A stretch of DNA of 64,000 nucleotides from Ruegeria sp. HKCCA6707 (GTDB lineage: Bacteria > Pseudomonadota > Alphaproteobacteria > Rhodobacterales > Rhodobacteraceae): assembly GCF_013033515.1 (NCBI RefSeq), contig NZ_WQEG01000001.1:682001-746000 (forward strand). Direction: 5' to 3'. Positions 33,138 to 48,513 of the stretch are shown one piece after another; the first letter of the stretch is position 1; each line of letters starts with the position of its first letter. A program made the position numbers and the translations under genes. A model generated the notes under the pieces. It had not been told where the DNA came from and searched no databases. It was given only the letters and a program-made list of their open reading frames with translations.

Positions 33138-34303
33138 GCCTGCCCCCCTGCCCGTAGCACAGTCACCGCGCAGCTTGTGCCGACGCCGCCATGTGTATCG
33201 GCCAAAGCGTGGCCGAGCGGACGTTCTGGCTGCAGACCCTTGTGGTATCGGCCTTCCAGCAGCAACGCACAGGTGGCGGCTTGTCCGACCCCCGTTGCCC
33301 CAACCGGCGCACCTTGCCCGATCAGACCACCGGACAGATTGATAGGGCAAGCGCCATCCGCATCAAACCGACCATCCCGCAAAGCGGCAACCGGATCAGC
33401 GGACAGGCCGAGCGCCGCAATCGCTTGTAACTCAGCACCTACATAGGCGTCATAAACCTCTGCAAGGTCAATCGCCGAGGCGCTGATACCCGCCATTTCA
33501 TAGGCACGCTTCGCCGCGAGTGATTTGGCTTCGAAACGACCCAGAGATTTGCGATGACCCAAGCCGGGCAGATCGGATGCCGCCCCAATGCCGGTGATCG
33601 CGGGTGCACGGGTTTGTCGCAAGGCAGGTGCTGCTTCGCGCGCGGACAGGATCAGCGCAGCCGCCCCGTCGCTAAGGGGCGAGCAATGCAGGCGTTTGTA
33701 CGGGGATGCAATCACTGGAGAGGCTTCAAATTCCTCCGCCGTATGTATCCTAGGAAGATGCGCGCCGGGATTCTCACAAGCGTTGCAACGGTTTTTGGTG
33801 GCGACGCGGTCCAGATCGGTCCCTGCTGCACCATATTCGGCCGCAAAGGCCTGCCAGGACAGGGCATAAAGGCCAGTTGCGGTGATACCCGAAAGGCCAT
33901 CGGTCCAGAAATCGAAAGAATAGCCATAGAGCTCGCGAATGCTGTCACCGTCCAGCGCACTGGCTGACGGATCTACGCCCAAGACAGCAACCCTCTGCGC
34001 CCGTCCAGACAGGATGCGTTCGACACCTACATGAACCGCGTATTGACCTGAACCGCCCCCACCCTCAACCCGCAACGTCTCTGCACCGCAAAGACCAATA
34101 TCCTGGGCAATCACAGAAGCCGGGTTAAGTTGAAGCGTGAAAAAATCGCTTTCCGAAGAAACAATCAGCGCGTCAATATCGCCGGGTTCCAACCCGGCCA
34201 TCCTAAGTGCATCGCTGAACGCCTGCGCAGCCCAATCCCGAAAGCCAGACCCGTCGCGCCGCCGGTTGAAAGGCGTCAATGCTGCACCGATGACCAGTAC
34301 CAA
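33134..34303 (-). CDS. Thiolase-like protein lacking the nucleophilic cysteine
   Basis: This is a 389-residue SCP-x/thiolase-superfamily protein (MVLVIGAALTPFNRRRDGSGFRDWAAQAF, C-terminal ADTHGGVGTSC). In true thiolases the nucleophile lies in a CASG motif near residue 85, but here the aligned stretch is VEGGGGSGQYA (residues 79-89), so the Cys is replaced by Gly. This pattern, with an adjacent DUF35 protein, is that of retro-aldolases such as Ltp2 rather than acyl-transferring thiolases. The DLAEVYDAYV segment may supply the catalytic tyrosine. It leads the operon with DUF35 and acyl-CoA synthetase. Confidence 0.9.
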   Translation of the reverse strand: MVLVIGAALTPFNRRRDGSGFRDWAAQAFSDALRMAGLEPGDIDALIVSSESDFFTLQLNPASVIAQDIGLCGAETLRVEGGGGSGQYAVHVGVERILSGRAQRVAVLGVDPSASALDGDSIRELYGYSFDFWTDGLSGITATGLYALSWQAFAAEYGAAGTDLDRVATKNRCNACENPGAHLPRIHTAEEFEASPVIASPYKRLHCSPLSDGAAALILSAREAAPALRQTRAPAITGIGAASDLPGLGHRKSLGRFEAKSLAAKRAYEMAGISASAIDLAEVYDAYVGAELQAIAALGLSADPVAALRDGRFDADGACPINLSGGLIGQGAPVGATGVGQAATCALLLEGRYHKGLQPERPLGHALADTHGGVGTSCAVTVLRAGGQA

Positions 34304-34387: not shown

Positions 34388-35533
34388 TTGACGACTCGGA
34401 ATGTCCATTGGCTTAGCCAGGCCCTGCCGGTATTGGGATGTTTTGGCGGTGGCAGTCTTTACGGCTGGTCCGGCCTTTTGCCCGCTGTTCAAAACGCGTT
34501 TGACGTCGGCAACGCCTCCGCATCCATGGTGTTCTCGTTTGCGCTGGTCAGCTTTACGTTTGGTGTTCTGATTGGCCCTGCTCTGTTAGCCAAACTGCCA
34601 GCACGTGCATGCCTGCCTGCTATTTCGGGCCTGGCAGCTGCAAGTCTGCTGCTGTCTGCGCGGGCGCAGGCTTTTGAGGTGTTTGTGCTGGGTTATGGCA
34701 TCGGCTTTGGGTTTGCTGCGGGGGCGCTTTACAATCACGCACTGGGCGTTGCTGCAGCTTCGCGTCTGCCAACGCTCCTTGTTCCCGTCAGCGTCGCCGC
34801 GTTCGGATTGGGCGGAGTTGTCTTTGGCCCGATGAGTGTATGGCTGATCGAGCTTGGCTGGTCGCTCAGCGCGCTATTGCCTGTATTGGGGTGCATGGTT
34901 CTAATCGCTGCGGTTTCGTCAGTGACGAAACCCGCATTGGACACCAACGCGATCCGCACAACCGTGCGGTCAGAGGTCATCAAACCAAACCGCGTGATCC
35001 TTTTGCTTTGGGCTATCTTCGCCACCGGTTCCTGCGCTGGCCTAATTGTTCTGGGCCTTGCCCCGAAACTGCTGCCTTCCGGCACACATACTGCGGGAAT
35101 GGCAGTTTTCGGTGTTGCCGCAGGCAATACGCTGGGGCGTCTTTCGGCTGCCGGTGTGGCAACCCGTCGTGGACCGTTGCGCGGCTTTGTCGGTGCCGTG
35201 CTGCTTTCGGTGGCGGCATTGTCCGCATTACTGGTGCCTGGCGTGTCAGAGATGATGATGACGGTGCTGATTTTTCTGGTGGCGCTGTCATATGGCCAGA
35301 TCGCCGCACAAACACCGTTGTTGGTATCCGCACGCGTTCCAGCCCCGGCGTTTTCGAGCGCGTTTGGCTGGGTTTTTACCGGATGGGGCGTTGCCGGCTT
35401 GCTGGGGCCGTGGGGCGCGGGATGGCTGTACGACCAGACCGGTGATATGCGGCTGACCCTTCTGGCCTGCATCGGGTTTTTGTTTCTCAGCCTTCTGCTG
35501 ATCACACGGCTGCCCACAACAGACCCAGGCTAG
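34388..35533 (+). CDS. MFS transporter
   Basis: This is a 381-residue integral membrane protein with about 12 hydrophobic segments in two six-helix halves. The first half has GGGSLYGWSGLLPAVQNAF, typical of the OFA/oxalate-formate antiporter-like branch of the major facilitator superfamily, which carries small carboxylates. The start is a TTG at 34388 behind GAAAGGGCC. It diverges from the acyl-CoA ligase operon and precedes the sugar operon by 61 bp, so it could feed either one. Confidence 0.86.
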   Translation: MTTRNVHWLSQALPVLGCFGGGSLYGWSGLLPAVQNAFDVGNASASMVFSFALVSFTFGVLIGPALLAKLPARACLPAISGLAAASLLLSARAQAFEVFVLGYGIGFGFAAGALYNHALGVAAASRLPTLLVPVSVAAFGLGGVVFGPMSVWLIELGWSLSALLPVLGCMVLIAAVSSVTKPALDTNAIRTTVRSEVIKPNRVILLLWAIFATGSCAGLIVLGLAPKLLPSGTHTAGMAVFGVAAGNTLGRLSAAGVATRRGPLRGFVGAVLLSVAALSALLVPGVSEMMMTVLIFLVALSYGQIAAQTPLLVSARVPAPAFSSAFGWVFTGWGVAGLLGPWGAGWLYDQTGDMRLTLLACIGFLFLSLLLITRLPTTDPG

Positions 35534-35594: not shown

Positions 35595-36440
35595 GTGAAG
35601 TTCGGTATCCATTCGGGATTGTGGATGAAGGCCTGGACCGACGATCCGGACCCGATCCTCGAAACTGTTGCTCAAATCGGCTATGACATTGTCGAACTCT
35701 CGCTGCTTGGCGTCGGGCTTGATCGGGCTGACAAGATCCGGTCAAAGGCCAGCGAGTGTGGGTTAACCGTAACATGTTCAACCGGCCTCGGGCCCGATGC
35801 GGACCCGACCTCAGAAGATCCGGCCATCCGTGACAACGCGGTAGTTGTACTTAGCGATGCGATCCGGACAACCGCGCGATTGGGATCCAAAAGCCTCGCC
35901 GGTGTGGTCGCCGCACCTTGGGGTGTTTTCGACCCAGCCAACAAACCCGCCCGCGCGTCTCGGTCAGCGGAGACTTTGGCGCGTGTCGCTCCGGTTCTGG
36001 AGGCCGAGGGCGTTTACCTTGGGATCGAAGCGCTCAACCGGTTCGAAAGCGACCTGACCTCGACAGCGGCAGAGACCTGCGCAATTGCTCGCGCGACAGG
36101 ATCGGATCACATCGGTGTGCTGCTCGACAGCTTCCACATGAATATCGAAGAGAAAGACCCACCTGCAGCAATCCGCGCGGCCGGTGATACGCTGGTGCAC
36201 TATCATGTGTCGGACAATGACCGGGGGCAGCCGGGCTTGGGCCGCTATGATTTCCCCGCTGATGCCAAGGCATTGAAAGATATCGGTTACAAAGGCTGTA
36301 TCGTGGCCGAGATGTTCGTGATGGCCGGACATGCGTCAAGCCGCGATCTCAACATCTGGCGCGATATCGAGCCCGACCCAACACGCGCTGCCGTGGAAAC
36401 GCTGGCCTATTTGAAGAAGGTCTTTGGCGATGTCAGCTGA
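35595..36440 (+). CDS. TIM-barrel sugar isomerase/epimerase (tagatose-3-epimerase-like)
   Basis: This is a 281-residue AP-endonuclease-2-fold protein resembling ketose 3-epimerases. Metal ligands are likely the Glu in YLGIEALNRF, the Asp in GVLLDSFHMN, the His in VHYHVSDNDRG, and the Glu in IVAEMFV. These four residues and the DTE-family landmarks (MKFGIHSGLW, IGYDIVELSLLG) fit epimerase or isomerase function on a ketose or ketose phosphate. The start is GTG at 35595 behind GGGGGG. It opens the sugar operon and overlaps dhaL by 11 bases. Confidence 0.9.
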   Translation: MKFGIHSGLWMKAWTDDPDPILETVAQIGYDIVELSLLGVGLDRADKIRSKASECGLTVTCSTGLGPDADPTSEDPAIRDNAVVVLSDAIRTTARLGSKSLAGVVAAPWGVFDPANKPARASRSAETLARVAPVLEAEGVYLGIEALNRFESDLTSTAAETCAIARATGSDHIGVLLDSFHMNIEEKDPPAAIRAAGDTLVHYHVSDNDRGQPGLGRYDFPADAKALKDIGYKGCIVAEMFVMAGHASSRDLNIWRDIEPDPTRAAVETLAYLKKVFGDVS

Positions 36441-36960
36441 CCGTTTCTTTCAACTGCTGCAGGCCCGCTATGCCCGTGAAGCCGACCATCTCAACACGCT
36501 GGACGCTGCCATAGGGGATGGCGATCACGGGACAACCATGCAGCGTGGCCTGACAAAGGCAACGACGGCAGAAGATGGCAAACGCGCAAAAGCCTTCATG
36601 CGCGCCTCGGGCGGGGCATCGGGCACTTTGTTCGGTCTGATCTTGCTTGAAATAGAAACGCACCTGGACACAGGTGCACCCCTGAACCTGACACGAGCAT
36701 GCGACCGTATCTGCGATTTGGGGGACGTGGCACCGGGCGACAAAAGCATGGTCGACGCCCTGTACCCGGCGCTTGCCGCGCAGCACAGCGGAGTGGCGGC
36801 AATGATCTCTGCCGCGACGAAGGGGCGCGACGCAACCGTGGACATGTCCGCCCGTAGGGGCCGCGCGCAATATGTCGAAAATGCAGGGCGCGGGCATATG
36901 GATCCCGGCGCTGCCTCGGTGGTGATTTTTCTGGAGACCCTTGCGGAGGTGTCGCCATGA
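36430..36960 (+). CDS. DhaL-type kinase subunit
   Basis: This is a 176-residue ADP/ATP-binding subunit of the dihydroxyacetone kinase family. The nucleotide-binding signature is complete: AAIGDGDHGTTMQRGL, RASGGASGTLFGL, VAPGDKSMVDALYP and RGRAQYVENAGRGHMDPGA. No DhaM (PTS-linked) gene is present, so phosphoryl transfer should use ATP directly, with DhaK and DhaL on separate chains as in DhaK-type tetrulose and pentulose kinases. The gene overlaps the epimerase and dhaK genes, making it translationally coupled. Confidence 0.93.
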   Translation: MSADRFFQLLQARYAREADHLNTLDAAIGDGDHGTTMQRGLTKATTAEDGKRAKAFMRASGGASGTLFGLILLEIETHLDTGAPLNLTRACDRICDLGDVAPGDKSMVDALYPALAAQHSGVAAMISAATKGRDATVDMSARRGRAQYVENAGRGHMDPGAASVVIFLETLAEVSP

Positions 36961-37979
36961 AAAAGCTGTTCAACACCCCAGAGACGATGGTCGATGATAT
37001 GCTGGACGGCTTTGTCAGCGCATTTCCCCAAGTGCAACGCGGCCAGAGCGATCCCCGCGTGATCATTCGCGGATCTGCGAACCGCAAGAACGCCGATGAG
37101 AAAGTCACGTTGTTGATCGGCAACGGCTCGGGACATGAGCCGATTGCCATGGGCTTTGTCGGCGCCGGGCTGCTGGACGCCAATATCGTTGGAGATGTTT
37201 TTGCAGCGCCTTCGGCAGATCTGATCCTTGACGGGATTTCCGAAGTGACCGGCGCGGCGGGCTCGATCCTGCTGATATCGCAGCATTCCGGTGACATGAT
37301 CAACGGGCGCGCAGCCACGATGATGGCACAGGATTTGGGCGTCCAGACCCTTCCCCTACCAATGTATGACGACATTTCCGCCGCACCGCCAGAGCGCAAA
37401 CAGGACCGGCGCGGTGCGCCGGGGACGATGTTCATCTACAAGATCCTTGGGGCAGCGGCCGAGGAAGGCCAGTCGCTTGAGGCATTGATGGCCCTGGGCA
37501 AAGCCGTGCGCGAGCGGCTTGTGACTCTTGCAGCGGCGATCACGCCGCCGGTGTCACCCTTGACGGGGAAATCCATGTTCGAACTGCCTGACGACGAAGT
37601 TTTCCTCGGTATGGGTGTTCACGGTGAACCGGGGGTTGGGCGTGTCAAAACAGGCCCCGTGCGCGATCTGGTCCGGCGGATGGTTGACGCTCTGCTGGCC
37701 GACCGCCCCATGCAAAGGGGCGCACAGGTTTGCGTGATCGTCAACGGAATGGGCGGCACCACAATGATGGAGCAGCTGACCGTTTGGGAGGAAACCCGCA
37801 CCGCGCTGGCCGAACACGGCATTCGCGCGATTGCTCCGATGATCGGCAGCTATGTCACAACCCAGGAAATGGGCGGGTTCTCGATTTCCTTCTTGGAACC
37901 CACTGAGGAGATGTTGCGGCACTGGCTGGCACCCTCCGACACGCCGTTTTTCCCGCAGATCAGGATGGAGGCCACATGA
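36957..37979 (+). CDS. DhaK-type ketose kinase substrate subunit
   Basis: This is a 340-residue DhaK subunit. The substrate is bound covalently through a histidine in DhaK proteins, and the conserved GMGVHGEPGV motif is present near residue 220. The N-terminal GNGSGHEPIAMGFVG and ISQHSGDMING segments are also typical. It overlaps dhaL and the aldolase gene by ATGA. Because an isomerase and a class I aldolase are encoded alongside, the natural substrate is likely a ketopentose or ketotetrose phosphorylated at a primary hydroxyl, rather than dihydroxyacetone itself (inference). Confidence 0.93.
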   Translation: MKKLFNTPETMVDDMLDGFVSAFPQVQRGQSDPRVIIRGSANRKNADEKVTLLIGNGSGHEPIAMGFVGAGLLDANIVGDVFAAPSADLILDGISEVTGAAGSILLISQHSGDMINGRAATMMAQDLGVQTLPLPMYDDISAAPPERKQDRRGAPGTMFIYKILGAAAEEGQSLEALMALGKAVRERLVTLAAAITPPVSPLTGKSMFELPDDEVFLGMGVHGEPGVGRVKTGPVRDLVRRMVDALLADRPMQRGAQVCVIVNGMGGTTMMEQLTVWEETRTALAEHGIRAIAPMIGSYVTTQEMGGFSISFLEPTEEMLRHWLAPSDTPFFPQIRMEAT

Positions 37980-38872
37980 GCATCTTTGATGATCCTGTTT
38001 ATGGTGTCGCCGTTGATCAAGGCAGCGGGCTCGAGGCCGCCCTGCGCAAGGTGCGCGGTTCACAAGCGCGCCCAGGTGATTTGCTGGATTTCAAACGTAT
38101 TACAGTTGAAACGCTCAGCCCGTTTGCCACCACCATGCTGGTTGATGCCTCGCTGGGCCGAGAGCTGTTGCCGTCCTTTGACACAAACTGCGTCAAAATG
38201 CTGGCCTATGAGGCGGACGTGTACCACATCTCAGACGACGACCGGATGACCAAACTGCCGGACAATCTGAGCGTTGCCGACTATCCGGTTCTGGGTGCCG
38301 AGATATTGAAGTTTTTTCTCTACTACGGGCCGAACGATCCGGCAGAGCTGAATCAGCGCAAGCAGGAGCTGGTGGCGCAGATCGGGGCCGCATGTCGCGA
38401 ACACGGGGTGACATTTCTGTTCGAACCGCTCGTCTATGATCGCGCCATTCCCGACAGCAGCTCTGCCGAATATGCGATCGCCAAACCGGGGCTCGTCGGA
38501 TCGGCCACCCGCACTTTTGCCGCTCCAGAATTCAATATTGATGTCCTGAAGGTCGAAATTCCCATCAACATCGCCAAAGTCGGCTCCGCCATGTCCGAAG
38601 CCGAAGCCATGGCGGCCTTCCGCGAAGCCGCTGCGGCGGCGGGCGACATCCCGCTCCTTTACCTCAGCGCCGGGGTCACGTTCGAACAATTCCGCGATGC
38701 ATTGGCCCTGTCACGCAAAGCGGGAGTCAATGCAAACGGGTTTATGTGCGGGCGCGCTATCTGGAGCGATGCAATCGACATTTTTGGTGCTGAAGGCCCT
38801 GCTGCGATGGCCCGATGGATGCAGTCGACCGGCCGCGAACGGTTGGATGCCTTGAAGGATGCGCTGACATGA
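37976..38872 (+). CDS. LacD-type class I aldolase (tagatose-bisphosphate / ketose-1-phosphate aldolase-like)
   Basis: This is a 298-residue aldolase of the DeoC/LacD superfamily. Recognisable segments are GVAVDQGSGLEAAL, TTMLVDASLG, TFLFEPLVYD and the Schiff-base lysine strand NIDVLKVEIPI; the C-terminal LLYLSAGVTFEQF is the phosphate-site strand. The expected reaction is reversible cleavage of a ketose phosphate to dihydroxyacetone phosphate or a related triose phosphate plus an aldehyde. It overlaps dhaK and the GntR gene (ATGA at 38869) and so is coupled to the kinase. Confidence 0.9.
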   Translation: MSIFDDPVYGVAVDQGSGLEAALRKVRGSQARPGDLLDFKRITVETLSPFATTMLVDASLGRELLPSFDTNCVKMLAYEADVYHISDDDRMTKLPDNLSVADYPVLGAEILKFFLYYGPNDPAELNQRKQELVAQIGAACREHGVTFLFEPLVYDRAIPDSSSAEYAIAKPGLVGSATRTFAAPEFNIDVLKVEIPINIAKVGSAMSEAEAMAAFREAAAAAGDIPLLYLSAGVTFEQFRDALALSRKAGVNANGFMCGRAIWSDAIDIFGAEGPAAMARWMQSTGRERLDALKDALT

Positions 38873-39597
38873 TGGAGGTGGCCAAATACAAGCAGGTTCA
38901 TCATGAAATTCTGAACCGGCTTCAAACCGGGCAATATGCAATTGGAATGCGTCTGCCTACCGAAAGCGAACTGTCAAATGCCTTTGGCGTCAGCCGGGTC
39001 ACCATCCGCAAGGCTTTGGAAATTCTGGTGCGCGACGGCTATCTCACCTCACGCCAGGGCAGCGGATACAACGTCGCGACTTTGTCGCCACCGACCTCGA
39101 CCTGCCTTGTGTCTTTCACCGACAAGGTTCTGCGCGAAGGCCGCGTGCCCGGGGCACGGCTGCTGCGCCTTGAGGTCCAGGCTAAGACAGTGCCAGCCGC
39201 CGTCAACGAGTTCTTCAATGAACCGCTGGTTCTGGTTGAACGGCTACGCACCATCGATGATGTGCCGGGTATGCTGACCCAGACATGGATCCCCAGCCGG
39301 TTGGTGCCGCATATCTCAGCCGATCATTTTCCGGAAACCGGGCAGAGCCAATCCATTCTCAGAATTTTGCAGCAAGTGTTCGCACTGGCCTGGACCAGCG
39401 CGTGCGAGACGTTGGACAGCCTGCTTGCCGAACCGGAAATTGCCGAACTGCTGAACATACCCGCCGGCACCCCAATTCTGTCGCAGGCCTGCACTGCCTT
39501 TGACGCCGACGGGGCGCCGGTTTTCTTTGATCAGGTGTTCCGTCAGGGACCCATCAGTTTTGATCTGGCCGGGGCCGCCCCGCGCCAGACCGCTTAG
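38869..39597 (+). CDS. GntR family transcriptional regulator (UTRA type)
   Basis: This is a 242-residue HutC-type GntR regulator. The N-terminal winged helix is clear (LQTGQYAIGMRLPTESELSNAFGVSRVTIRKALEILVRDGYLTSRQGSG), followed by a UTRA ligand-binding domain (residues ~85-235) that usually binds a sugar or phosphorylated pathway intermediate. Lying inside the operon, it is probably autoregulated. Its start overlaps the aldolase stop codon. Confidence 0.94.
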   Translation: MMEVAKYKQVHHEILNRLQTGQYAIGMRLPTESELSNAFGVSRVTIRKALEILVRDGYLTSRQGSGYNVATLSPPTSTCLVSFTDKVLREGRVPGARLLRLEVQAKTVPAAVNEFFNEPLVLVERLRTIDDVPGMLTQTWIPSRLVPHISADHFPETGQSQSILRILQQVFALAWTSACETLDSLLAEPEIAELLNIPAGTPILSQACTAFDADGAPVFFDQVFRQGPISFDLAGAAPRQTA

Positions 39598-39611
39598 GAA
39601 GGGCGATACTC

Positions 39612-41036
39612 ATGTCGCTGACGATTGGATTAATCAACGCTTCTCTTCCAAGCTACTTCCCCGTCAAGCACGGTGTGTTCGAGGCATGCTCTGATTGGCT
39701 ACGTAAACTTGCCGCCTCCTACGACGTCTCAGTCGTGGTTGCCGAAACAGTTCCGATGAATGGGGTCGAAGCCCGCGGTGCGGTGGATGAGTTGCGTGCA
39801 GAAGGCGCGGATTTTCTGCTGCTTTTGCACGGTGGTTTCACCATGGGTGACGTAGTGCGGGAAGTGGCGCGGGAAAACCTGCCCATGGGTGTCTGGGCCA
39901 CGCCCGAACCAACGCTGACCGAGGATATACAGCTTAACAATTTTGTATCGCTGAACATGTCGATGTCGATCCTGCGCGGTGTGCGGGACACCCGCCAATT
40001 CCCGGTGCAGTGGTATCTGGGCGCGCCCGACGAAGAACACCTGGAACAGCGGATGAGCCAAACCATCCGCGCGCTTACTGCGCGCAAGGCGCTGGACGGT
40101 GTGCGGATCGGGGTCGTCGGTGGACTGGCCATGACCTTCTACAATATGGAGGTGTCATCCGACACATTGCTCCGCCAGCTTGGCGTCTGGACCGAGCATG
40201 TGGATATCCACCGCATGACCGACCTGATGACCGCTCAATCCGATGCGGATGTGGCGGCCGAGCTGTCAGCCATGACCAGAGCCGCCGAAGTGCGCGGCGT
40301 TTCTGATGACCAGATGGTCCTGACCGCCCGTGCGGTTCTGGCCTTGCGGCAAATCGCGGCAGAGGGTGGCTATGATGCGTTGACGGTGTCCGACTGGCCC
40401 GCCTTGCAGGATCATCCCGGAATGCATCCCGGTGCGGCGTTCAGCTGGCTTGAAGAAAACGATGCGCTGCCAATCGCATCAGAGGGCGATGTTCTGGGCG
40501 CTGTCACGCAGCTGGTGGCCAAGTCTCTGACTGGTCGCGTGGGCTGTTTGCTGGACATGACCTCACCCGATTTCGACCGCGACCAGATCCTGATGTGGCA
40601 TGGCGGCGGTGGGCCGCTGTATATGGCGGACAAAGGGATTGCGTGGATCAACCACCCGATGATCGGACGCGGCACCGAGGCCGGGCCGATTCACGGTGCT
40701 ATCGCGGATTACGAGTTTGCCCATGGCGATTGTACGATCCTGCGCGTCTCGCGCCATGGCACGGCGCGTTTTGTGCTGGAAGGCGCAGTTTCCGAAGGCC
40801 CGGCCCCGGGCTTTACCGGGTGCCGCGGTTGGATCGGAGACTTTTCTGACGCAAAGGGCGCCTGGTCAGCGCGTGACGTCGTGACAACGGTTTTGGAACA
40901 CGGACTGGAACATCACTTTATCCTTGTTCCCGGTCGCCACCGCGCCGTTTTCGAGGAGTTTGCCCAATGGTGCAGTATGTCTGCGTTGCCGATCATACCG
41001 TCCCATGACGGCCTGCCACAAGGAGCTGGCCTGTGA
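39612..41036 (+). CDS. L-fucose/L-arabinose isomerase-like protein
   Basis: This is a 474-residue member of the FucI/AraA-type ketol isomerase superfamily. Markers: an N-terminal Rossmann-like domain (LTIGLINASLPSYFPVKHGVF), DFLLLLHGGFTMGDVV, VRIGVVGGLAMTFYNMEV, and the C-terminal WHGGGGPLYMADKGIAWINHPMIGRG, where the motif WHGGGGP with its histidine corresponds to the metal-binding region of FucI-like enzymes. It probably converts an aldose to the ketose that DhaK-DhaL phosphorylates. The aldose is unknown. The start at 39612 is 15 bp after the GntR gene. Confidence 0.88.
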   Translation: MSLTIGLINASLPSYFPVKHGVFEACSDWLRKLAASYDVSVVVAETVPMNGVEARGAVDELRAEGADFLLLLHGGFTMGDVVREVARENLPMGVWATPEPTLTEDIQLNNFVSLNMSMSILRGVRDTRQFPVQWYLGAPDEEHLEQRMSQTIRALTARKALDGVRIGVVGGLAMTFYNMEVSSDTLLRQLGVWTEHVDIHRMTDLMTAQSDADVAAELSAMTRAAEVRGVSDDQMVLTARAVLALRQIAAEGGYDALTVSDWPALQDHPGMHPGAAFSWLEENDALPIASEGDVLGAVTQLVAKSLTGRVGCLLDMTSPDFDRDQILMWHGGGGPLYMADKGIAWINHPMIGRGTEAGPIHGAIADYEFAHGDCTILRVSRHGTARFVLEGAVSEGPAPGFTGCRGWIGDFSDAKGAWSARDVVTTVLEHGLEHHFILVPGRHRAVFEEFAQWCSMSALPIIPSHDGLPQGAGL

Positions 41037-42076
41037 CGGCTGTTCACCTCAAAGGGGTCCGCAAGGACTATGGCAATTTCACCGCGATCTCCCATATCGA
41101 TCTCGACATCGCGTCCGGAGAGCTTGTCGCCCTGTTAGGTCCGTCAGGCTGCGGCAAGACCACAACGCTGCGGATGATTGCCGGGCTGGAAATTCCGACG
41201 AGCGGCCAGATTTGCTTTGACGGCAAGGATGTCTCAGAAGTGCCGGTGCAAAACCGCAATGTCGGCATGGTTTTCCAGCGCTATGCGCTGTTCCCTCATA
41301 TGTCCGTGGAAAAGAACATTCTGTTCGGGCTCAAGGTACGCGGAACCGACAAGGCCGAGGCCGAAGACCGGCTGGAGCAAATTCTCGATGTCGTGCAACT
41401 TCAACAATTTCGTCACCGATTTCCCGCGCAGCTATCGGGCGGGCAGATGCAGCGCGTGGCCATCGCGCGTACGTTGATCACCAACCCTTCTGTCCTGATG
41501 ATGGACGAACCTCTGGCAAATCTCGACACCAAGCTGCGCGGCGAGATGCGACGCTTTATTCGAAACCTGCAGCAGAGGCTGGGAATCACCACGATCTTTG
41601 TAACCCACGATCAGATCGAAGCTATGGAACTTGCTGACCGGGTGGCCGTGATCTTCAACGGCAATCTCGCCCAGTTTGACGAGCCCGATACCTTGTACAA
41701 ACACCCCAAAAGCGTTGAGGTCGCCGATTTCATGGGGGCTACAAACGTCTTTGCGGCGCAGATCAACGACAAGACCGCAACGCTGGATTTTGGCGCGTTG
41801 ACCTTTGACGCGCCGTCGCAGAATGGCACGCGCTCGGTGATGCTACGAAGCGAAGCGATCGACCTGCATCTGGACGAACCAACGGATGTGCAAAACGTTT
41901 TTCGGGGCACCATCGCGACCCGAGATTTCTTTGGCGCCAACATCACCTACGGGGTCACCTGCGGCCACGAGACGGTTCAGGTCACAGAACAATCCCGCCG
42001 CGTTATCGACGTCGGGCAAGACGTCTGGCTGACCATCCCGCCCGAGCGGATCTGGGTCATTCAGAAAAACGACTAG
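41033..42076 (+). CDS. ABC transporter ATP-binding protein (PotA/YnjD-like)
   Basis: This is a 347-residue ATPase with Walker A GPSGCGKTT, the Q-loop region, signature LSGGQMQRVAIA, Walker B VLMMDEPLANLD and the switch histidine in FVTHDQ. The C-terminal ~110 residues form a TOBE-type domain, as in PotA/MalK and iron/polyamine-type importers. It starts with GTG at 41033, overlapping the isomerase stop. It energises the importer made with the two permeases and binding protein that follow. Confidence 0.95.
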   Translation: MTAVHLKGVRKDYGNFTAISHIDLDIASGELVALLGPSGCGKTTTLRMIAGLEIPTSGQICFDGKDVSEVPVQNRNVGMVFQRYALFPHMSVEKNILFGLKVRGTDKAEAEDRLEQILDVVQLQQFRHRFPAQLSGGQMQRVAIARTLITNPSVLMMDEPLANLDTKLRGEMRRFIRNLQQRLGITTIFVTHDQIEAMELADRVAVIFNGNLAQFDEPDTLYKHPKSVEVADFMGATNVFAAQINDKTATLDFGALTFDAPSQNGTRSVMLRSEAIDLHLDEPTDVQNVFRGTIATRDFFGANITYGVTCGHETVQVTEQSRRVIDVGQDVWLTIPPERIWVIQKND

Positions 42077-42101
42077 TGGAAAGAAATCAGAGGAGGAGAC
42101 C

Positions 42102-43442
42102 ATGAAGAAAACACTTCTTACGTTATCCCTGCTTGGAGGGTTGGTGACGAGTGCGTCTTATGCGCAGGATGTCGAGGCTTTCCGTGATGCCGTGACATCC
42201 GGCTCAGCGACCTGGGAGGAAATTCAGGCCCGCGCCAAGGAAGAGGGCGAAATCAACCTCTACTATTGGGGTGGCAGCGATCAGATCAACATCTGGATGG
42301 ATCGCTTTGCCGCGCCGGGGCTTGAGGCAGAGGGTGTCAAGCTCAACCCTGTTCGCATAACCGGCACCAAGGACGCTGTTGATTTGGTTCTGGCCGAGCT
42401 CGGCTCTGGCAAAGGTCTGGGTGAAGGCAGCGTTGACGCGATCTGGGTGAACGGTGAAAACTTTGCCACGCTCAAACGCCAGAACGCTCTGTTTGGCGCT
42501 TTTGCCGACAAGCTTCCCAACAGCGCGAACATCGAATGGAATGCCGATGATCCACGTGCATTGCTGAACCTGCGCGACTTTGGTGTCGAAACCAACGCAT
42601 CCGAGATGCCCTGGTCAGGCCAGCAATATGTGTGCTCGGTCAATACTGCGCGGGTCGCGAAAGAAGACATACCGAGCACGTTTGCGGATCTGAAAGGCTA
42701 TCTTGAAGCCAATCCCGGCAAGTTCGCCTATGTCAAACCACCCCATTTCATCGGCAACACCTTCGTTCAGGCCGCGATCTATGCGCATAACCCGGACGGC
42801 AATGGTGCGGTTCCGTTCCAGAACTCGATTGACGATCTCGGCGCTGCAGAATTGGCGCGGTTGATCACACCGGGCATGGAATACCTGAAAGAGCTGGACG
42901 GATTGCTACTGGGCGCGTCAGGAAGCGGTGCAAGATATCCCGAAGACCCGTCGGCCCTGAATGGCTTGTTCCTGAACGGTGAGATTGATTTCTCGTGCCA
43001 ATTCGGCCTTTACGGTGTCGCAATCGGTTTGCGGGATGGTACTTACCCTGAAGGGGCGGAGCAGTTCATCTTCCCCGAGGGCAATATGATCAAGAACAAG
43101 AACTATCTTGTCATTCCCGCGAACGCGCCGAACCCCGCCGCCGCGCTGGTCATGGCCAACTACATGGCCTCGGTCGAAGCTCAGGCCTCCAAGCTTGAAG
43201 TTGCCGGTATGCCACCTGGTATCGATCCGTGGCGTCTGTCCGAAGAGGACGTTGCCAAACTGACCGCGGCCTCACCGGGTTTTGTCGGCATCACTCAGCA
43301 AGAGTTGGACGCAAACACCGCGCCCGACACCAACGCAACGCTGGTCGATGTTATCGAAGCCACTTGGCTGGAATACATCGAACGCAAAAGCACTGACCCG
43401 ATCGACGTGATCGTGGAACGCGCGGTTGCAAACCTGAACTAA
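42102..43442 (+). CDS. ABC transporter substrate-binding protein (YnjB-like)
   Basis: This is a 446-residue periplasmic receptor with a signal peptide (MKKTLLTLSLLGGLVTSASYA). The mature region resembles YnjB-type and other cluster binding proteins that pair with PotA-like ATPases: INLYYWGGSDQINIWMDRF at the N-terminal strand, ALGSG-type GSGKGLGEGSVDAIWVNGENF, FKYVKPP-type FAYVKPPHFIGNTF. A GGAGGAG ribosome site precedes the ATG. Its ligand is presumably the nucleoside or glycoside that the operon consumes. A hairpin follows the gene. Confidence 0.9.
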   Translation: MKKTLLTLSLLGGLVTSASYAQDVEAFRDAVTSGSATWEEIQARAKEEGEINLYYWGGSDQINIWMDRFAAPGLEAEGVKLNPVRITGTKDAVDLVLAELGSGKGLGEGSVDAIWVNGENFATLKRQNALFGAFADKLPNSANIEWNADDPRALLNLRDFGVETNASEMPWSGQQYVCSVNTARVAKEDIPSTFADLKGYLEANPGKFAYVKPPHFIGNTFVQAAIYAHNPDGNGAVPFQNSIDDLGAAELARLITPGMEYLKELDGLLLGASGSGARYPEDPSALNGLFLNGEIDFSCQFGLYGVAIGLRDGTYPEGAEQFIFPEGNMIKNKNYLVIPANAPNPAAALVMANYMASVEAQASKLEVAGMPPGIDPWRLSEEDVAKLTAASPGFVGITQQELDANTAPDTNATLVDVIEATWLEYIERKSTDPIDVIVERAVANLN

Positions 43443-43455
43443 GAACACCCAAACA

Positions 43456-43481
43456 GAGCCCCCTTCGCAAGCGGGGGGCTC
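43456..43481 (+). other. Stem-loop between binding-protein and permease genes
   Basis: GAGCCCCC and GGGGGCTC form an 8-bp GC-only-rich stem with a 10-base loop, directly after the substrate-binding-protein stop. No T-tract follows and the permease genes start 17 bp on. This is the classical place for an mRNA-protecting hairpin that raises the binding-protein to permease ratio. Confidence 0.75.
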
Positions 43482-43497
43482 GAACAAGGATTTGAGA

Positions 43498-44406
43498 ATG
43501 GGTGATTCCGCACCAAATGAGTTGGCACGGCTTCGTCGGGAACGGCGGCTGATGCTGTTGCAATTGCTGCCGGTTGTGCTTGTCCTGACGGTGCTGTTTG
43601 GCGGCGCCCTTGTGCTTGGCGTGATGCAATCGCTGGGCTTTGCGCCCTGGTTTGGTGTGAACACCTTTCCGGATTTTTCCTATTTCGGCGTACTTTGGAG
43701 TCAGGCCTCGTTTTGGCAATCTCTCTGGCTGACGCTTTACTATGCCGTTGCGGCGACCATTCTTTCGCTGATCCTGGGCATTCTGCTGGCGCTTGCGTTG
43801 GTGCGAACCTTTCCCTCCAAAACGCTGTATAAATACCTCTATAAACTCCCGCTGATGATCCCCTACACTGTCGGCATTGCTCTAGCTGTGATCATGTTGG
43901 GCAACGGCGGGATGCTGTCGCGGTTGATGGCTTTTGCAGGTCTGATCGACGACCCGGCGCAGTTTCCGCAGATCCTCAAGACGCATATGGGGTGGGGTAT
44001 TATCGCCGTCTATGTCTGGAAACAGACACCGTTCGTTGCCCTGACCATCTACGCCGTTCTGTTGGGCGTCGGACGCGAGACGGAAGAGGCCGCAGCGATC
44101 CTGGGTGCCAACAAGCGGCAGATCTTCTTCTTGGTGACGCTGCCGCAAATCCTGCCAGGGATCATTTCGTCAACGCTCATCATCTTTGCCTTCAACATCG
44201 GGGCCTTTGAAGCGCCGTTCATTCTTGGCGGCGGCTTTCCTGACACGTTGCCGGTGGTCGCCTGGCGATACTTCAACGACGCGGATTACACACTGCAGTT
44301 GCAGGGGATGGCTACAGTTGTGTCCATCGCCCTGATCGCAGGTGGCATCCTTTATAGCTATCTTGCGATCTACCGGCGCTATGAACGCCGCATCGGGAGG
44401 CAGTGA
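43498..44406 (+). CDS. ABC transporter permease 1
   Basis: This is a 302-residue inner-membrane permease with six helices and the EAA loop (EEAAAILGANKRQIFFLVTLPQILPGI). It starts at ATG 43498 with AAGGA upstream; the TTG at 43492 is less likely. It pairs with the second permease to form the importer channel. The two genes overlap by a stop/start region at 44403-44409. Confidence 0.93.
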   Translation: MGDSAPNELARLRRERRLMLLQLLPVVLVLTVLFGGALVLGVMQSLGFAPWFGVNTFPDFSYFGVLWSQASFWQSLWLTLYYAVAATILSLILGILLALALVRTFPSKTLYKYLYKLPLMIPYTVGIALAVIMLGNGGMLSRLMAFAGLIDDPAQFPQILKTHMGWGIIAVYVWKQTPFVALTIYAVLLGVGRETEEAAAILGANKRQIFFLVTLPQILPGIISSTLIIFAFNIGAFEAPFILGGGFPDTLPVVAWRYFNDADYTLQLQGMATVVSIALIAGGILYSYLAIYRRYERRIGRQ

Positions 44407-44408
44407 CG

Positions 44409-45275
44409 ATGGCGCGTCGGAACGCAAATGCCACTGCGCTTAGCGAACGGCTTTCACCGTTTCAGAAGGTCTATTTATGGTTGGTAGCGGGGTTCATACT
44501 GGGCCCGTTCATCCCGCTGATCATCCAAAGCTTTGCGTTCCGCTGGGCCTGGCCTGATCTGCTGCCAAGCACATGGTGGCTGGAGCAACGTGAGAAATCC
44601 GTGCTGCCCCTGTCCTGGGATTACGTGATCTCGCCCTATAGCCAGGTGTGGGAAGCTACGCTGAACACCGTCTTCATCGGATGCGCGGTAACTGTGATCT
44701 GTCTGATCATCTGCCTGCCCGCAGCGCGCGTTTTGGCACGTGAAAGTTTCCGCGGCAAACCAGCTTTTGAGTTCTTCCTCTCCATGCCTCTCATCGTGCC
44801 CGAGGCGGCCATTGGCATCGCGCTGCTGATGATCTTTATCCAGATCGGACTGGCCGGGACCTATACGGGGATCATCATTGTCCACCTTATTCCGACCATA
44901 CCTTACATGATCCGAATGCTCACCGCTGTTTATCAGGGGCTGGGCCGTGACTTCGAGGAACAGGCAATGATCTTGGGCGCATCGCGCTGGCAAATCCTGC
45001 GCATGGTGACACTGCCCATGCTGTTGCCAGGCGTTGTTGCCGGGGCTCTGTTCACGTTTCTGGTATCTACAAACATCTTCCTTCTGACCTTTTTCATGGG
45101 TCAGGGCAAAATCATTACCTTGCCCACACTGCTTTTCTCAAAGATCGCGGGCGGGACGTTGGATGCGTCCGCAGCTGGCATCACATTGGTTGTGACCGTC
45201 CCCGGCATCATTCTTTTGGTCGTGACCGAGCGGTTCATCAAAGAAGAGGCATTTGGCAAAGGCTTCGGCAACTAG
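44409..45275 (+). CDS. ABC transporter permease 2
   Basis: This is a 288-residue six-helix permease with an EAA loop (EEQAMILGASRWQILRMVTLPMLLPGV). The ATG at 44409 lies eight bases after GGGAGG; a GTG at 44403 is an alternative. Two distinct permeases with a PotA-like ATPase define a PotABC/YnjBCD-type heterodimeric importer. Confidence 0.92.
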   Translation: MARRNANATALSERLSPFQKVYLWLVAGFILGPFIPLIIQSFAFRWAWPDLLPSTWWLEQREKSVLPLSWDYVISPYSQVWEATLNTVFIGCAVTVICLIICLPAARVLARESFRGKPAFEFFLSMPLIVPEAAIGIALLMIFIQIGLAGTYTGIIIVHLIPTIPYMIRMLTAVYQGLGRDFEEQAMILGASRWQILRMVTLPMLLPGVVAGALFTFLVSTNIFLLTFFMGQGKIITLPTLLFSKIAGGTLDASAAGITLVVTVPGIILLVVTERFIKEEAFGKGFGN

Positions 45276-45287
45276 AAAGGCAAAGAC

Positions 45288-46400
45288 ATGATGACTTTGA
45301 ATGAGGCCGTAGAACGGTTCACCCCTCTGGACCCCGAGTTAATGAAAACCCGGCTGGACCGACCGGGAGCGATGCCACGCGTTATCATCGACACCGACAC
45401 CGCCAACGAGATCGACGATCAATACGCCGTGGCCTGGGCGCTGTTGTCGCAAGATCGTCTGAACCTCGAAGGTGTCACAGCCGCGCCCTATTCATTCCTG
45501 CACCATCGCGATGGTCTTTATGATGCTGTCGCTGCCTTGCAACAGGGAAGTGGGACAGACCATGACAGCAAATTTGTAGGCCCCTTCGCAGGATGGGCGC
45601 AGCGATTGCTGGCTGATGGACGCACGGCGGATGACATTGAATTTGTAACGCCGGATGTAGGCGAAGCGCGTTCTTATGATGAAATCCTACGCGTTTTTGA
45701 CGCCTGTGGTGTCGCTTCCGAAGGCCGAGTGTTCCATGGCTCGACACAGCATTTGCCGTCCTATGACGCGCCGGTGGATTCGGATGCGGCCCAATTCATC
45801 ATCAAACAGGCACGTAACCGCGAAGACGGGCCGGTCTATGTCCTCGCCATGGGAGCATTGCCAAACATCGGCTCCGCCCTGCTGATGGCGCCGGACATCA
45901 TCGACAATATCGTTGTGGTCTGGACCTCAGGCTTTCCCAGCTATGCGCCGTTTTGCAATGAACCGTCACTGAATCTCGTGCAAGATCAGCTATCGTCGCG
46001 ATTGCTGTTCGAGTGTGGCGTGCCGCATGTGTATTTACCAGGCTACCATGTCGGCGCACAGCTGACGATTTCCAAGCCGGAAATGGAGGCTTTTGTCAAA
46101 GGTCGCGGAGCAATCGGCGATTACTTATGGCATCTTTACACCAACAACCCCTTGCATGTGAAATACGCGATATCCGAGCCGGACACGAAAACATGGGTGA
46201 TCTGGGACATCATCAATGTGGCCTGGATGCTCGATGCTGCTTATGTGCCGACCCATCTGACAAACTCGCCACATCTGAACGCCGAACTCTATTGGCAGAA
46301 TGACCCGTCGCGCCACCTGATGCTCGAGGCCTATGACGTGGCGCGGGATGCGATTTTTGAAGATTTCTACCGCTCCCTCGCGAAAGGCAGATCCGCTTGA
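45288..46400 (+). CDS. Nucleoside-hydrolase-like (IUNH family) enzyme
   Basis: This 370-residue protein belongs to the inosine-uridine nucleoside hydrolase family, which cleaves N-glycosidic bonds using a calcium ion. The metal cluster is recognisable as IDTDTANEIDDQYA with Asp35, Asp37, Asp43 and Asp44, a variant of the usual DTDPGxDD, plus LAMGALPNI in the middle. An N-terminal extension of about 30 residues precedes the core. The variant loop may mean a substrate other than common ribonucleosides. It closes the sugar operon and would release the sugar that the isomerase, kinase and aldolase consume. Confidence 0.88.
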   Translation: MMTLNEAVERFTPLDPELMKTRLDRPGAMPRVIIDTDTANEIDDQYAVAWALLSQDRLNLEGVTAAPYSFLHHRDGLYDAVAALQQGSGTDHDSKFVGPFAGWAQRLLADGRTADDIEFVTPDVGEARSYDEILRVFDACGVASEGRVFHGSTQHLPSYDAPVDSDAAQFIIKQARNREDGPVYVLAMGALPNIGSALLMAPDIIDNIVVVWTSGFPSYAPFCNEPSLNLVQDQLSSRLLFECGVPHVYLPGYHVGAQLTISKPEMEAFVKGRGAIGDYLWHLYTNNPLHVKYAISEPDTKTWVIWDIINVAWMLDAAYVPTHLTNSPHLNAELYWQNDPSRHLMLEAYDVARDAIFEDFYRSLAKGRSA

Positions 46401-46692: not shown

Positions 46693-48513
46693 ATGATCTC
46701 TATGTGCAAATGGCGCCGTCACATCTGGTACCTGTTGGCGATTGGTTTGATCTTGATCGCGCCACTTGCGGCAGAAGCCAACGGGAAGCGCGTAGCGCTT
46801 GTAGTCGGCAATTCTGCCTATCAACACGTCCCAAATCTGCGCAACCCAGCCAACGATGCCCAAGATATCTCCAATGCATTGAAGCGAATTGGATTTACGG
46901 TCACGCTGCAAAAAGACTTGAACTACACAGATATGAGAATTGCATTGCGCGACTTCACAAAAGCCGCAGCAGATGCAGAAGTCGCATTGGTGTATTTCGC
47001 GGGTCACGGCATTGAAATCGAAAACACAAACTATTTGATTCCAGTGAATGCAGCATTGCGTAGCGACCGCGACGTGGAATTCGAAGCCATTCGTCTGGAC
47101 GCTATTGTTAAATCTATTGCTGGTTCATCCGCTCTGAATATCGTGATTGTTGACGCTTGCCGCAACAACCCCTTTCTCGCAAATATGAAACAGGGCTCGA
47201 TTACCCGGTCGATCGGGAGCGGATTGGCTGCTGTCGAGTCGGGCGGTGTCGTAGTCGGTTATGCAGCCCGTGGCGGAACACTGGCGCAGGATGGCGACGG
47301 CCGAAATAGCCCCTATGCACAAGCTCTTTTGGAATACATTGAACAACCTGGTCTGGAACTTGGAAAATTGTTTCGCAAGGTTCGCGACCGCGTAATTACT
47401 CTCACTGACGGGTACCAGGAACCCTTTGTCTACGGTTCATTGCCAGGCAAAGACATTTTTTTGGTTCCAAAGATCGAAAAAGTTGCCTTGCCTGCGCCGG
47501 ACTTACAGGGGTCTGTTGCTCCGGCTTCACAGCCGCTGGCAAAACAGGAAAGCGCGCTGGCAGCCGCAATGAAAGTAAACACAATCAGGGGCTGGGACTT
47601 GGTTTCAAGATCCCAGCCCATCGCGGCCACGACGGCTTATGAAACGCTTCAAAGAATGGATGAAATCACACCTGCCTGGATCAAAAACAGCGGGCGTTTG
47701 GGTGCGATAGAGGCTGCGCTTTTGCCGGATCTCGCGCAGAAAAAGAAGTTGCAACAAAGCCTAAATGACAATGGCTTTGAAGTAGGTGTTCCTGATGGTG
47801 TATTCGGGCCGCGGACCCGAGCTGGCATCAGGGCGTTTCAGGCAAACTATGGGTTGGAACAAGCTGGATATGCGGATGTAGCAGTTCTTTTCGGCCTAGG
47901 GCTCAGGCCCCATGTCGAAACAGATGAAAGCTTCATAAGCAACTCCTTTGCGGTCCGGCACAGTATACCCGAGCTTGAACAGCTGGGTGAGTCCGAAGAA
48001 ATTACTCAGATCCTCAAGTGCCTTGGGCTTCGAAAAAGCGTCTATGGAACCTTTGGTGGGAGCCTTTACGTTGTGCTGATGTATTCCGGTACGGTCCAGA
48101 ATGCGCGTAGAGAAGCGCAGCAATGCGGCTTGGATCTGGCCGCAATCACATCTTCCGCAGAGAACGCGTTCGTCGTTCGAATGATCGCAAGTGACCCGGC
48201 CTTCTTCGAGGTCGGTTACGACAGTAAAACAAGAACCAGCTACAAGGCAGGACCATATTTTGGGTTCAGAAAAGACCCAAAAGAAGACAGCGCGATTACC
48301 GGTTGGCGTTGGTTTAGCGGTGAACCGGTAGGTTACACCAATTGGTTGCCGTCCAAGCCAAACAGAAATCACGGCAAAGGCAGCAAAACATACGCCCAAT
48401 TTCAGTATGAAGCCCGGGGGCGGCGGGACATCGACAATGTTGTCCCGACCATGTGGTTTGATGGCTCGGGCAGGAACGCACGCTCTGTTGTGTTGGAAGG
48501 TACATTAGAATGA
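46693..48513 (+). CDS. Secreted caspase-like protease with peptidoglycan-binding and C-type-lectin-like domains
   Basis: This is a 606-residue protein. An N-terminal hydrophobic export signal (~residues 10-28) leads to a caspase/peptidase C14 fold (~33-260) with the catalytic dyad His105 (VYFAGHGIE) and Cys156 (VIVDACRNNP). A peptidoglycan-binding repeat follows at ~350-400 (GFEVGVPDGVFGPRTRAGIRAFQ). The C-terminal ~150 residues look like a C-type-lectin fold (LDLAAITSSAENAFVV, ITGWRWFSGEPVGYTNWLPSKPN). I know no characterised protein with this trio, though similar roseobacter proteins may exist. It is probably periplasmic or wall-associated. ATG 46693 is chosen; ATG 46702 is possible. Confidence 0.85.
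   Translation: MISMCKWRRHIWYLLAIGLILIAPLAAEANGKRVALVVGNSAYQHVPNLRNPANDAQDISNALKRIGFTVTLQKDLNYTDMRIALRDFTKAAADAEVALVYFAGHGIEIENTNYLIPVNAALRSDRDVEFEAIRLDAIVKSIAGSSALNIVIVDACRNNPFLANMKQGSITRSIGSGLAAVESGGVVVGYAARGGTLAQDGDGRNSPYAQALLEYIEQPGLELGKLFRKVRDRVITLTDGYQEPFVYGSLPGKDIFLVPKIEKVALPAPDLQGSVAPASQPLAKQESALAAAMKVNTIRGWDLVSRSQPIAATTAYETLQRMDEITPAWIKNSGRLGAIEAALLPDLAQKKKLQQSLNDNGFEVGVPDGVFGPRTRAGIRAFQANYGLEQAGYADVAVLFGLGLRPHVETDESFISNSFAVRHSIPELEQLGESEEITQILKCLGLRKSVYGTFGGSLYVVLMYSGTVQNARREAQQCGLDLAAITSSAENAFVVRMIASDPAFFEVGYDSKTRTSYKAGPYFGFRKDPKEDSAITGWRWFSGEPVGYTNWLPSKPNRNHGKGSKTYAQFQYEARGRRDIDNVVPTMWFDGSGRNARSVVLEGTLE

Follow-up and report, generated by a model that had tools for sequence, protein, structure and literature searches.

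Within a stretch of 64,000 nucleotides from Ruegeria sp. HKCCA6707 (contig NZ_WQEG01000001.1, positions 682,001 to 746,000; hereafter the window) lies a compact group of genes for which we consider the chances about even that it encodes an accessory catabolic system for a ribofuranoside carrying a substituent X instead of the hydroxyl group at C5. The group comprises eleven open reading frames (ORFs) on the plus strand at 35595-46400, with intact frames and with neighbours that overlap or nearly touch, and a divergently oriented trio adjoining them on the minus strand at 31090-34303, which encodes an AMP-forming coenzyme A (CoA) ligase, a ChsH2-like zinc protein and a thiolase-like protein. 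A preliminary description of this DNA had listed the eleven co-directional genes in the order in which they were found, and this part stands; its boundaries were too narrow, since the conserved unit reaches leftward to at least 31090 and the trio had been omitted. A C5-modified sugar that undergoes a second cleavage is the more likely because the nucleoside-hydrolase-like enzyme appears to have lost its contacts to the ribose O5' and because the genes for the CoA ligase, the zinc protein and the thiolase-like protein, which lacks the nucleophilic cysteine, are co-conserved with the sugar genes. As a possible but more tentative extension, X may be the arsenic group of the algal 5-deoxy-5-dimethylarsinoyl-ribosides, which would make the group a bacterial arsenosugar catabolic operon. 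Families were assigned by Pfam and NCBIfam hidden Markov model (HMM) scans, the ATPase of the ATP-binding cassette (ABC) importer being outside the scan; the genes, including a major facilitator superfamily (MFS) transporter and a nucleosidase on the left flank, are as follows.

30237-31073, plus strand: PNP_UDP_1-family nucleosidase or phosphorylase, probable accessory gene (PF01048, 67 bits)
31090-32769, minus strand: AMP-forming acyl-CoA ligase (PF00501/PF13193; present in 52 of the 66 loci described below)
32766-33137, minus strand: ChsH2-like zinc-ribbon partner protein (PF12172, zf-ChsH2; 4-base overlap with both neighbours)
33134-34303, minus strand: thiolase-like protein without the nucleophilic Cys, probable acyl-CoA retro-aldolase (thiolase domains; residue changes)
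34388-35533, plus strand: MFS transporter, monocarboxylate-transporter-like (SfMCT, 103 bits, under the cut-off of 320)
35595-36440, plus strand: ketose 3-epimerase-like TIM barrel (PF01261, 130 bits; PDB matches are psicose/tagatose epimerases)
36424-36960, plus strand: DhaL-like kinase subunit (PF02734; GDGDHG motif kept in 30 aligned sequences)
36957-37979, plus strand: DhaK-like kinase subunit (PF02733, 302 bits; GVHGEPG motif kept in 58 aligned sequences)
37976-38872, plus strand: LacD-type class I aldolase, DeoC/LacD (PF01791; NCBIfam PRK12858, 248 bits, above the cut-off of 184)
38869-39597, plus strand: GntR-UTRA regulator (PF00392 and PF07702; ATG at 38869)
39612-41036, plus strand: FucI/SftI-like aldose-ketose isomerase (NCBIfam SftI, 85 bits; AlphaFold model matches AraA and FucI)
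41033-42076, plus strand: ABC importer ATPase (motifs by eye, no HMM scan; co-conserved; annotated so in plasmid orthologs)
42102-43442, plus strand: periplasmic binding protein, YnjB-like (NCBIfam PRK11622, 274 bits, above the cut-off of 203)
43492-44406, plus strand: ABC permease 1 (PF00528)
44403-45275, plus strand: ABC permease 2 (PF00528)
45288-46400, plus strand: nucleoside-hydrolase-like glycosidase, apparently without O5' contacts (PF01156, IU_nuc_hydro, 53.7 bits, above the cut-off of 34.2; model matches nucleoside hydrolases)

The AlphaFold model of the hydrolase (pLDDT, predicted local distance difference test, 92) matches nucleoside hydrolases, and residue counts were made on 37 aligned orthologs out of 54 found. 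In RihA, according to PMC2898832, Asn158 and Glu164 hold the ribose O5', Asp10 and Asn166 hold water, and Asp10, Asp15 and Asp241 hold Ca2+. Asp37, Asp43, Asp44, Asn229 and Asp307 of the window's protein are kept in all 37 orthologs and Asp35 in 36; the fold, the Asp cluster, the Asn and the C-terminal Asp are shared with the IU nucleoside hydrolases RihA and YeiK (about 10-18% identity among the Foldseek matches listed). In contrast, the position matching Asn158 is occupied by Pro221 in 36 of the 37 sequences and that matching Glu164 by Ser227 in every one; the printed match is YeiK, and the RihA numbering was transferred via the shared Glu-x-Asn spacing. Since both O5' contacts are replaced while the catalytic residues are kept, the aligned sequences point to a riboside without a normal 5'-OH as substrate. 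This replacement, together with the co-conserved CoA genes, argues against ordinary ribose, arabinose or apiose, which the preliminary description had put forward as candidate sugars. Apiose was also set aside because the conserved families showed no gene of transketolase type; its breakdown is not known to yield dihydroxyacetone phosphate (DHAP) by aldol cleavage.

When the thiolase-like protein was aligned to the thiolases 7yvy and 6esq, Gly83 was found at the position of the nucleophilic Cys and Ala332 at that of the GHP His, both in 54 of 54 sequences, and the His-Asp pair is replaced by Tyr284-Asp285 (Tyr284 in all 54, Tyr-Asp in 53 with one unreadable). A true thiolase is ruled out by the absence of the nucleophilic Cys from the whole set. 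Ltp2 and Sal are described in PMC12329534 as cutting 3-hydroxyacyl-CoAs together with a zinc-ribbon DUF35 partner, the Tyr of the YDxF/Y motif being the catalytic base of Ltp2 and the same Tyr being essential in Sal. The zinc protein of the window is a match to zf-ChsH2 in Pfam, as expected of an Ltp2/Sal-type partner. With the steroid side-chain aldolases Ltp2-ChsH2 and Sal-Shy the window's protein thus has in common the Cys-less thiolase fold, the Tyr-Asp motif, the zinc-ribbon partner and, as predicted, a CoA-thioester substrate, whereas it differs from them in the third motif residue (Ala or Ser, once Pro, instead of His or Cys) and in being encoded beside a sugar operon. As Cys and His are lost and the Tyr motif of Ltp2 and Sal is present, the protein is most likely an enolate-forming acyl-CoA lyase. 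The best NCBIfam matches of the ligase encoded beside it, acetate-CoA ligase PRK04319 (352 bits, cut-off 729) and MbcS (306 bits, cut-off 850), both miss their cut-offs, and its acid substrate is therefore not given by name.

The distribution of the genes was followed across 248 genomes drawn evenly from the family. Relatives of the isomerase of any kind occur in 33 of these and orthologs with at least 56% identity in 10, including the window's own genome; the hydrolase ortholog is present in the same 10 genomes, two further ones containing partial matches of 36-37%, and the thiolase-like gene was found at E 1e-60 in 8 genomes, all of which are among the 10. In the neighbourhoods fetched from the nine other ortholog genomes, seven have the thiolase-like and CoA ligase genes, and zinc-protein homologs too, beside the cluster. 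The gene unit is accessory, as the isomerase occurs in just 2 of 54 genomes of the window's genus. A scan of contigs yielded 66 loci, which partly share contigs with the ten found in the family survey; 47 of the loci have full flanks, and by their titles they belong mostly to Alphaproteobacteria or Granulosicoccaceae, many of the genera being marine judged by name alone. The same gene order recurs in loci titled as Rhodobacteraceae genera, as Rhizobiaceae, Nitratireductor and Hoeflea, as Devosia and as Granulosicoccus, as well as on three plasmids, and the cluster is therefore not a product of chance.

Among the 47 loci with full flanks, dhaK and the hydrolase gene are each present in 43, ligase plus thiolase-like gene in 42 and the aldolase gene in 40 by tblastn (39 by ORF); both arms are present in 40, and CoA ligase, thiolase-like protein and dhaK occur together in 40 of the 47. 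Less frequent are genes for an aldehyde dehydrogenase (23), a PF01048 nucleosidase (15) and a short-chain dehydrogenase/reductase (SDR; 13). The corresponding counts for all 66 loci are 57 for dhaK, 54 for the hydrolase, 52 for ligase plus thiolase-like gene, 51 by tblastn and 50 by ORF for the aldolase, and 52 by tblastn and 51 by ORF for the zinc-protein homolog. The PF01048 protein of the window has conserved WWR and ME motifs, and homologs are encoded in the flanks of 16 of the 66 other loci. Two layouts were distinguished, that of the window and another with a different ABC set in which hydrolase, regulator and CoA arm are divergent; the MFS gene adjoins the thiolase-like gene in many relatives, and the aldehyde dehydrogenase gene, where present, often directly follows that of the aldolase. 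The view of the preliminary description that the genes form one catabolic unit is upheld by the order conserved across genera and by the co-occurrence of isomerase and hydrolase; scattering of the genes in related genomes was looked for, and they proved to be clustered and correlated, in favour of that view.

With the isomerase as query, seven of 72,556 plasmid records were matched, three of which contain orthologs (62-69% identity) and four distant relatives (23-27%). On the three ortholog plasmids, from Parasedimentitalea marina, Paracoccus seriniphilus and Marinovum algicola, the whole set is co-directional in the order MFS, thiolase-like protein, zinc protein, CoA ligase, epimerase, DhaL, DhaK, aldolase, (aldehyde dehydrogenase), GntR, isomerase, four ABC genes, hydrolase, with overlaps of a few bases between neighbours in several places, including the MFS/thiolase-like junction. 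In Paracoccus seriniphilus it forms a single run of 16 genes including MFS and aldehyde dehydrogenase; the run of Parasedimentitalea marina contains no aldehyde dehydrogenase gene, and on two of the three plasmids the zinc protein is annotated merely as hypothetical. Plasmid typing classified one as mobilizable and two as non-mobilizable, and we infer that the unit has spread horizontally. On the Parasedimentitalea plasmid (L127, 21451-29407) the cluster is followed by genes for a sugar ABC importer, an aldo/keto reductase and a glycerol-3-phosphate dehydrogenase.

For the isomerase, neither a Pfam match nor a PDB sequence match at E 0.001 was obtained, and its sole NCBIfam match is the sulfoquinovose isomerase SftI (NF048012; E 3e-24), with a score of 85 bits, under the cut-off of 700. 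Its AlphaFold model (pLDDT 92) was matched by Foldseek to L-arabinose isomerases AraA with a template-modelling score (TM) of about 0.8 and, ranking after these, to FucI and D-arabinose isomerase with a query-normalised TM of 0.72-0.76; as modelled, the protein has the fold of the L-fucose/L-arabinose isomerase superfamily. At the sequence level Glu291, Asp315 and His434 are invariant in 48 aligned sequences, and the Glu-Asp spacing of 24 equals what we take to be the FucI numbering for the Glu/Asp/His metal site. The epimerase-like protein scores 204 bits against the D-psicose 3-epimerase model NF051856, under the curated cut-off of 300, and the aldolase 180 bits against the tagatose 1,6-bisphosphate aldolase LacD model TIGR01232, under the cut-off of 432, while it passes the broader PRK12858. 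Kinase and aldolase look functional, given that the GVHGEPG motif of DhaK, the GDGDHG motif of DhaL and the Lys of the aldolase motif DVLKVE are conserved among the aligned orthologs. A search of the genome revealed no DhaM, so that the DhaKL kinase is probably ATP-driven and a DhaKLM phosphotransferase system was rejected; an operon for a kinase of dihydroxyacetone only was set aside in view of the conserved isomerase, aldolase and hydrolase. A promoter scan gave no excess (3 found against 4.6 expected), and a scan for terminator-like sites found 23 against 13.3 expected.

Starting from the observed gene content, conservation, co-occurrence, folds and residue changes, we infer by analogy a pathway in which every reaction, the order of reactions and the nature of X are predictions. 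The YnjB-type ABC importer would take up a 5-X-ribofuranoside, from which the nucleoside-hydrolase-like enzyme, aided in some strains by the PF01048 nucleosidase, would remove the aglycone to give 5-X-ribose. The FucI/SftI-like isomerase would convert this to a ketose whose C3 configuration might be set by the 3-epimerase, DhaK-DhaL would phosphorylate the ketose at C1, and the LacD-type aldolase would cut between C3 and C4, yielding DHAP and X-CH2-CHO. This aldehyde could be oxidised to X-CH2-COOH by an aldehyde dehydrogenase, encoded within the cluster in some relatives and not in that of the window, and converted by the AMP-forming ligase to X-CH2-CO-SCoA, whereupon the Cys-less thiolase-like protein and its zinc partner may cut the X-CH2 bond by the enolate chemistry of Ltp2 and Sal to give acetyl-CoA and oxidised X. 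The MFS transporter would export the leftover X, and GntR presumably controls the pathway. The earlier proposal of import, glycosidic cleavage, isomerisation, DhaKL phosphorylation and LacD cleavage is retained here, in keeping with the conserved motifs of kinase, aldolase and isomerase; its simple two-carbon aldehyde product is not, and as a plain-sugar scheme it is incomplete because the CoA arm, the aldehyde dehydrogenase of relatives and the MFS genes had been left out.

Parts of this scheme resemble known systems. In sulfoglycolysis, isomerisation and phosphorylation of an end-modified sugar precede its cleavage to DHAP and a modified aldehyde, and the logic of isomerase (FucI/SftI), kinase and class I aldolase (YihT/LacD) acting on a sugar with an unusual end group is the same; that pathway differs in employing a PfkB kinase, whereas here DhaKL, a nucleoside-hydrolase-like first step and an arm of CoA ligase and Cys-less thiolase-like protein are encountered. 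Distant relatives of isomerase (about 22-34% identical) and aldolase stand side by side in L044, L045, L046 and L048, which by eye also contain genes for a PfkB-like kinase and a TRAP-like transporter, together with an aldehyde dehydrogenase in L045 and L046 and a Gfo/Idh-like oxidoreductase in L045, L046 and L048; a Pfam scan bore out PfkB and the aldehyde dehydrogenase of L046 as well as Fucose_iso_C in L044. These four clusters probably serve sulfoquinovose use. The DhaK-family tetrulose and apulose kinases are, by description, similar in that a DhaK/DhaL-type kinase acts on a ketose other than dihydroxyacetone; their pathways are not known to include a LacD-type aldolase, a nucleoside hydrolase or a CoA arm. 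The DHAP shunt for 5-deoxyribose and methylthioribose splits a 5-modified ribose, in the form of its ketose 1-phosphate, into DHAP and a two-carbon aldehyde, as proposed here; there, phosphorylation precedes isomerisation and the enzymes belong to other families, in contrast to the isomerase, DhaKL and later CoA arm of the window.

Among the marine compounds known to us, arsenosugars fit best as the substrate. The substituent X has to sit on C5 of a ribofuranoside, it has to be commonly found in the sea, and the acid that remains has to require activation with CoA before a second cleavage; the dimethylarsinoyl-ribosides are consistent with this. Applied to them, the DhaKL and LacD route would give DHAP and dimethylarsinoylacetaldehyde; this aldehyde would be oxidised, and the resulting dimethylarsinoylacetate joined to CoA. 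The C-As bond might then be cleaved by the Cys-less thiolase-like enzyme, the As-OH acting as the C-OH of a retro-aldol reaction, to yield acetyl-CoA and dimethylarsinate, with export of the latter by the MFS transporter. PMC5478658 names arsenosugars as the main form of arsenic in seaweed, one of them being a sulfate, and lists dimethylarsinoylethanol (DMAE) and dimethylarsinoylacetate (DMAA), both as thio forms, and dimethylarsinate (DMA) as arsenosugar breakdown products in people who have eaten seaweed. Judging from their structures, we would expect the two-carbon arsenicals to remain after C3-C4 cleavage of the ribose. In an artificial gut with enteric bacteria, the deoxyribofuranose of the arsenosugar was left intact, as reported in PMC6656958.

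For the MFS protein encoded next to the thiolase-like gene in the 11 type I relatives examined singly, out of 14, the best NCBIfam model is the arsenical efflux transporter ArsK (NF033733; 53-108 bits, well under the cut-off of 400), and each of the 14 reaches at least E 1e-5 with this model. As background matches reach 42 bits in genomes of the same genus and 276 bits in other genomes of the class, this likeness is only suggestive; the MFS proteins of the window and of the type II loci are monocarboxylate-transporter-like (15 of 15 aligned). A sulfatase (PF00884) is encoded at 14198-15763 on the plus strand of L118, with homologs in L100, L102, L109 and L114; three of the five loci are titled SAR116, and this recurrence fits the existence of a sulfated arsenosugar. 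L100, titled as a Flavobacteriales metagenome-assembled genome, has the same gene set as the SAR116 locus L102 with near-equal identities and was probably misbinned. An annotated arylsulfatase gene also stands just upstream of the cluster on the Marinovum plasmid.

In the open-licence papers searched, neither an equivalent gene set nor an arsenosugar-degrading gene cluster was found, judged by titles and the openings of abstracts, and passages of the arsenic papers PMC7177459 and PMC6700110 name no such genes. The preliminary description knew of no pathway with this exact gene set; the gene families are known, and that literature yielded neither their combination nor the likely class of substrate. 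If X is the arsenic group, arsenosugar breakdown would gain genes and a mechanism for the observed products DMAE, DMAA and DMA, a new class of C-As bond cleavage would be defined, and a part of the marine arsenic cycle that is still open could be tested in culturable strains. Even without arsenic, a sugar operon in which a sugar-type aldol cleavage is followed by a second, CoA-dependent one on a Cys-less thiolase fold would be unusual. The recurrence of a unit of 15-16 genes, found also on plasmids, in Granulosicoccus and throughout Alphaproteobacteria, many with names that suggest the sea, implies a common substrate, which none of the literature searched connects with a described gene set.

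Several observations weigh against a C5-modified ribofuranoside or against arsenic as X. The alignment behind the O5' contacts, ungapped here, is weak (E about 1e-3) and compares sequences rather than pocket geometry. In the thiolase-like protein the residue after Tyr-Asp is Ala in 30, Ser in 23 and Pro in 1 of the 54 sequences, so that the acid of the proposed second cleavage lacks a counterpart to the His or Cys of Ltp2 and Sal. We know of no precedent for C-As cleavage by a thiolase fold. When unassigned flank ORFs were clustered, no recurrent arsenic family emerged, single arsenic genes not having been searched for; the families that recurred in at least four loci were limited to a sulfatase (5 loci) and, both named by eye, a GMC-type oxidoreductase and a HAD-type protein (4 loci each). 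The aldehyde dehydrogenase is present in only 24 of the 66 loci and is missing from the cluster of the window. No aldolase match was obtained in 7 of the 47 full-flank loci (L086, L092, L096, L097, L103, L106 and L110), two of which, L097 and L110, have an SDR at the expected place. In L086, L088 and L096 the CoA arm is present without dhaK at the site, L086 and L088 keeping only this arm and the isomerase and L096 also regulator and hydrolase; a DhaK with 63-65% identity is encoded elsewhere in these genomes, and a search of the genomes of seven reduced or atypical loci found DhaK with 63-65% identity in five, with 53% in one and none in one. L103, L106 and L108 show little beyond the isomerase, which in L103 and L108 is near distant (22-30%) homologs of ligase and thiolase that may represent a variant CoA arm. 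The flanks retrieved for L078 and L092 contain no CoA arm, and those for L090 no ligase. Of the ten family genomes, neither G158 nor G227 has a thiolase-like match anywhere at E 1e-60; the G227 contig begins inside the cluster, and the 6.4 kb contig of G158 ends on the transporter side and runs past the hydrolase into genes which by eye resemble leucine degradation, not the CoA arm.

Were DHAP and glycolaldehyde formed from ribose without any modification, or from a related pentose, with the CoA genes serving some other purpose, the hydrolase, PF01048 nucleosidase, isomerase, epimerase, DhaKL and LacD would suffice, and the G158 contig does contain isomerase, hydrolase and transporter genes in a genome without a thiolase-like match. 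Such a pathway, which we regard as unlikely, does not account for the CoA ligase and the Cys-less thiolase-like protein that are inherited along with the sugar genes, nor for the replacement of both O5' contacts in the hydrolase. Nearest to the chemistry of Ltp2 and Sal would be a carbon-extended sugar, with X a hydroxyalkyl group that leaves a true 3-hydroxy acid, from which the thiolase-like protein would form acetyl-CoA and an aldehyde by ordinary retro-aldol cleavage; besides the acid-forming dehydrogenase and the SDR of some loci no further recurring aldehyde enzyme was seen, we know of no abundant marine 5-deoxy, chain-extended ribofuranoside, and we consider this explanation rather unlikely.

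The lost O5' contacts and the PF01048 nucleosidase would also suit a 5'-modified adenosine, and the best, albeit sub-cut-off, NCBIfam match of the ligase is an acetate-CoA ligase, as if salvage of 5'-deoxyadenosine or methylthioadenosine led via the aldolase to acetaldehyde or methylthioacetaldehyde and the ligase activated the acid. However, acetyl-CoA would leave the thiolase-like protein without a task, an ABC importer and a regulator of its own are odd for an internal by-product, and MtnA is present elsewhere in the genome, so that ordinary methylthioribose salvage probably exists apart from the cluster; methylthioadenosine salvage was rejected on this ground, and the explanation as a whole appears quite improbable. 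The reduced loci L086, L088 and L096, which retain the CoA arm without dhaK, would accord with degradation of the aglycone freed by the hydrolase, rather than of the aldolase product, by a CoA arm separate from the sugar arm. Yet L086 and L088 have no hydrolase at the site and keep the isomerase, a sugar-acting enzyme, and the frequent position of the aldehyde dehydrogenase gene behind that of the aldolase also speaks against this arrangement, to which we assign a very low probability.

Just downstream of the operon, at 46693-48513 and 48994-50739 on the plus strand, two tandem genes encode proteins that by eye look like caspase-type peptidases.

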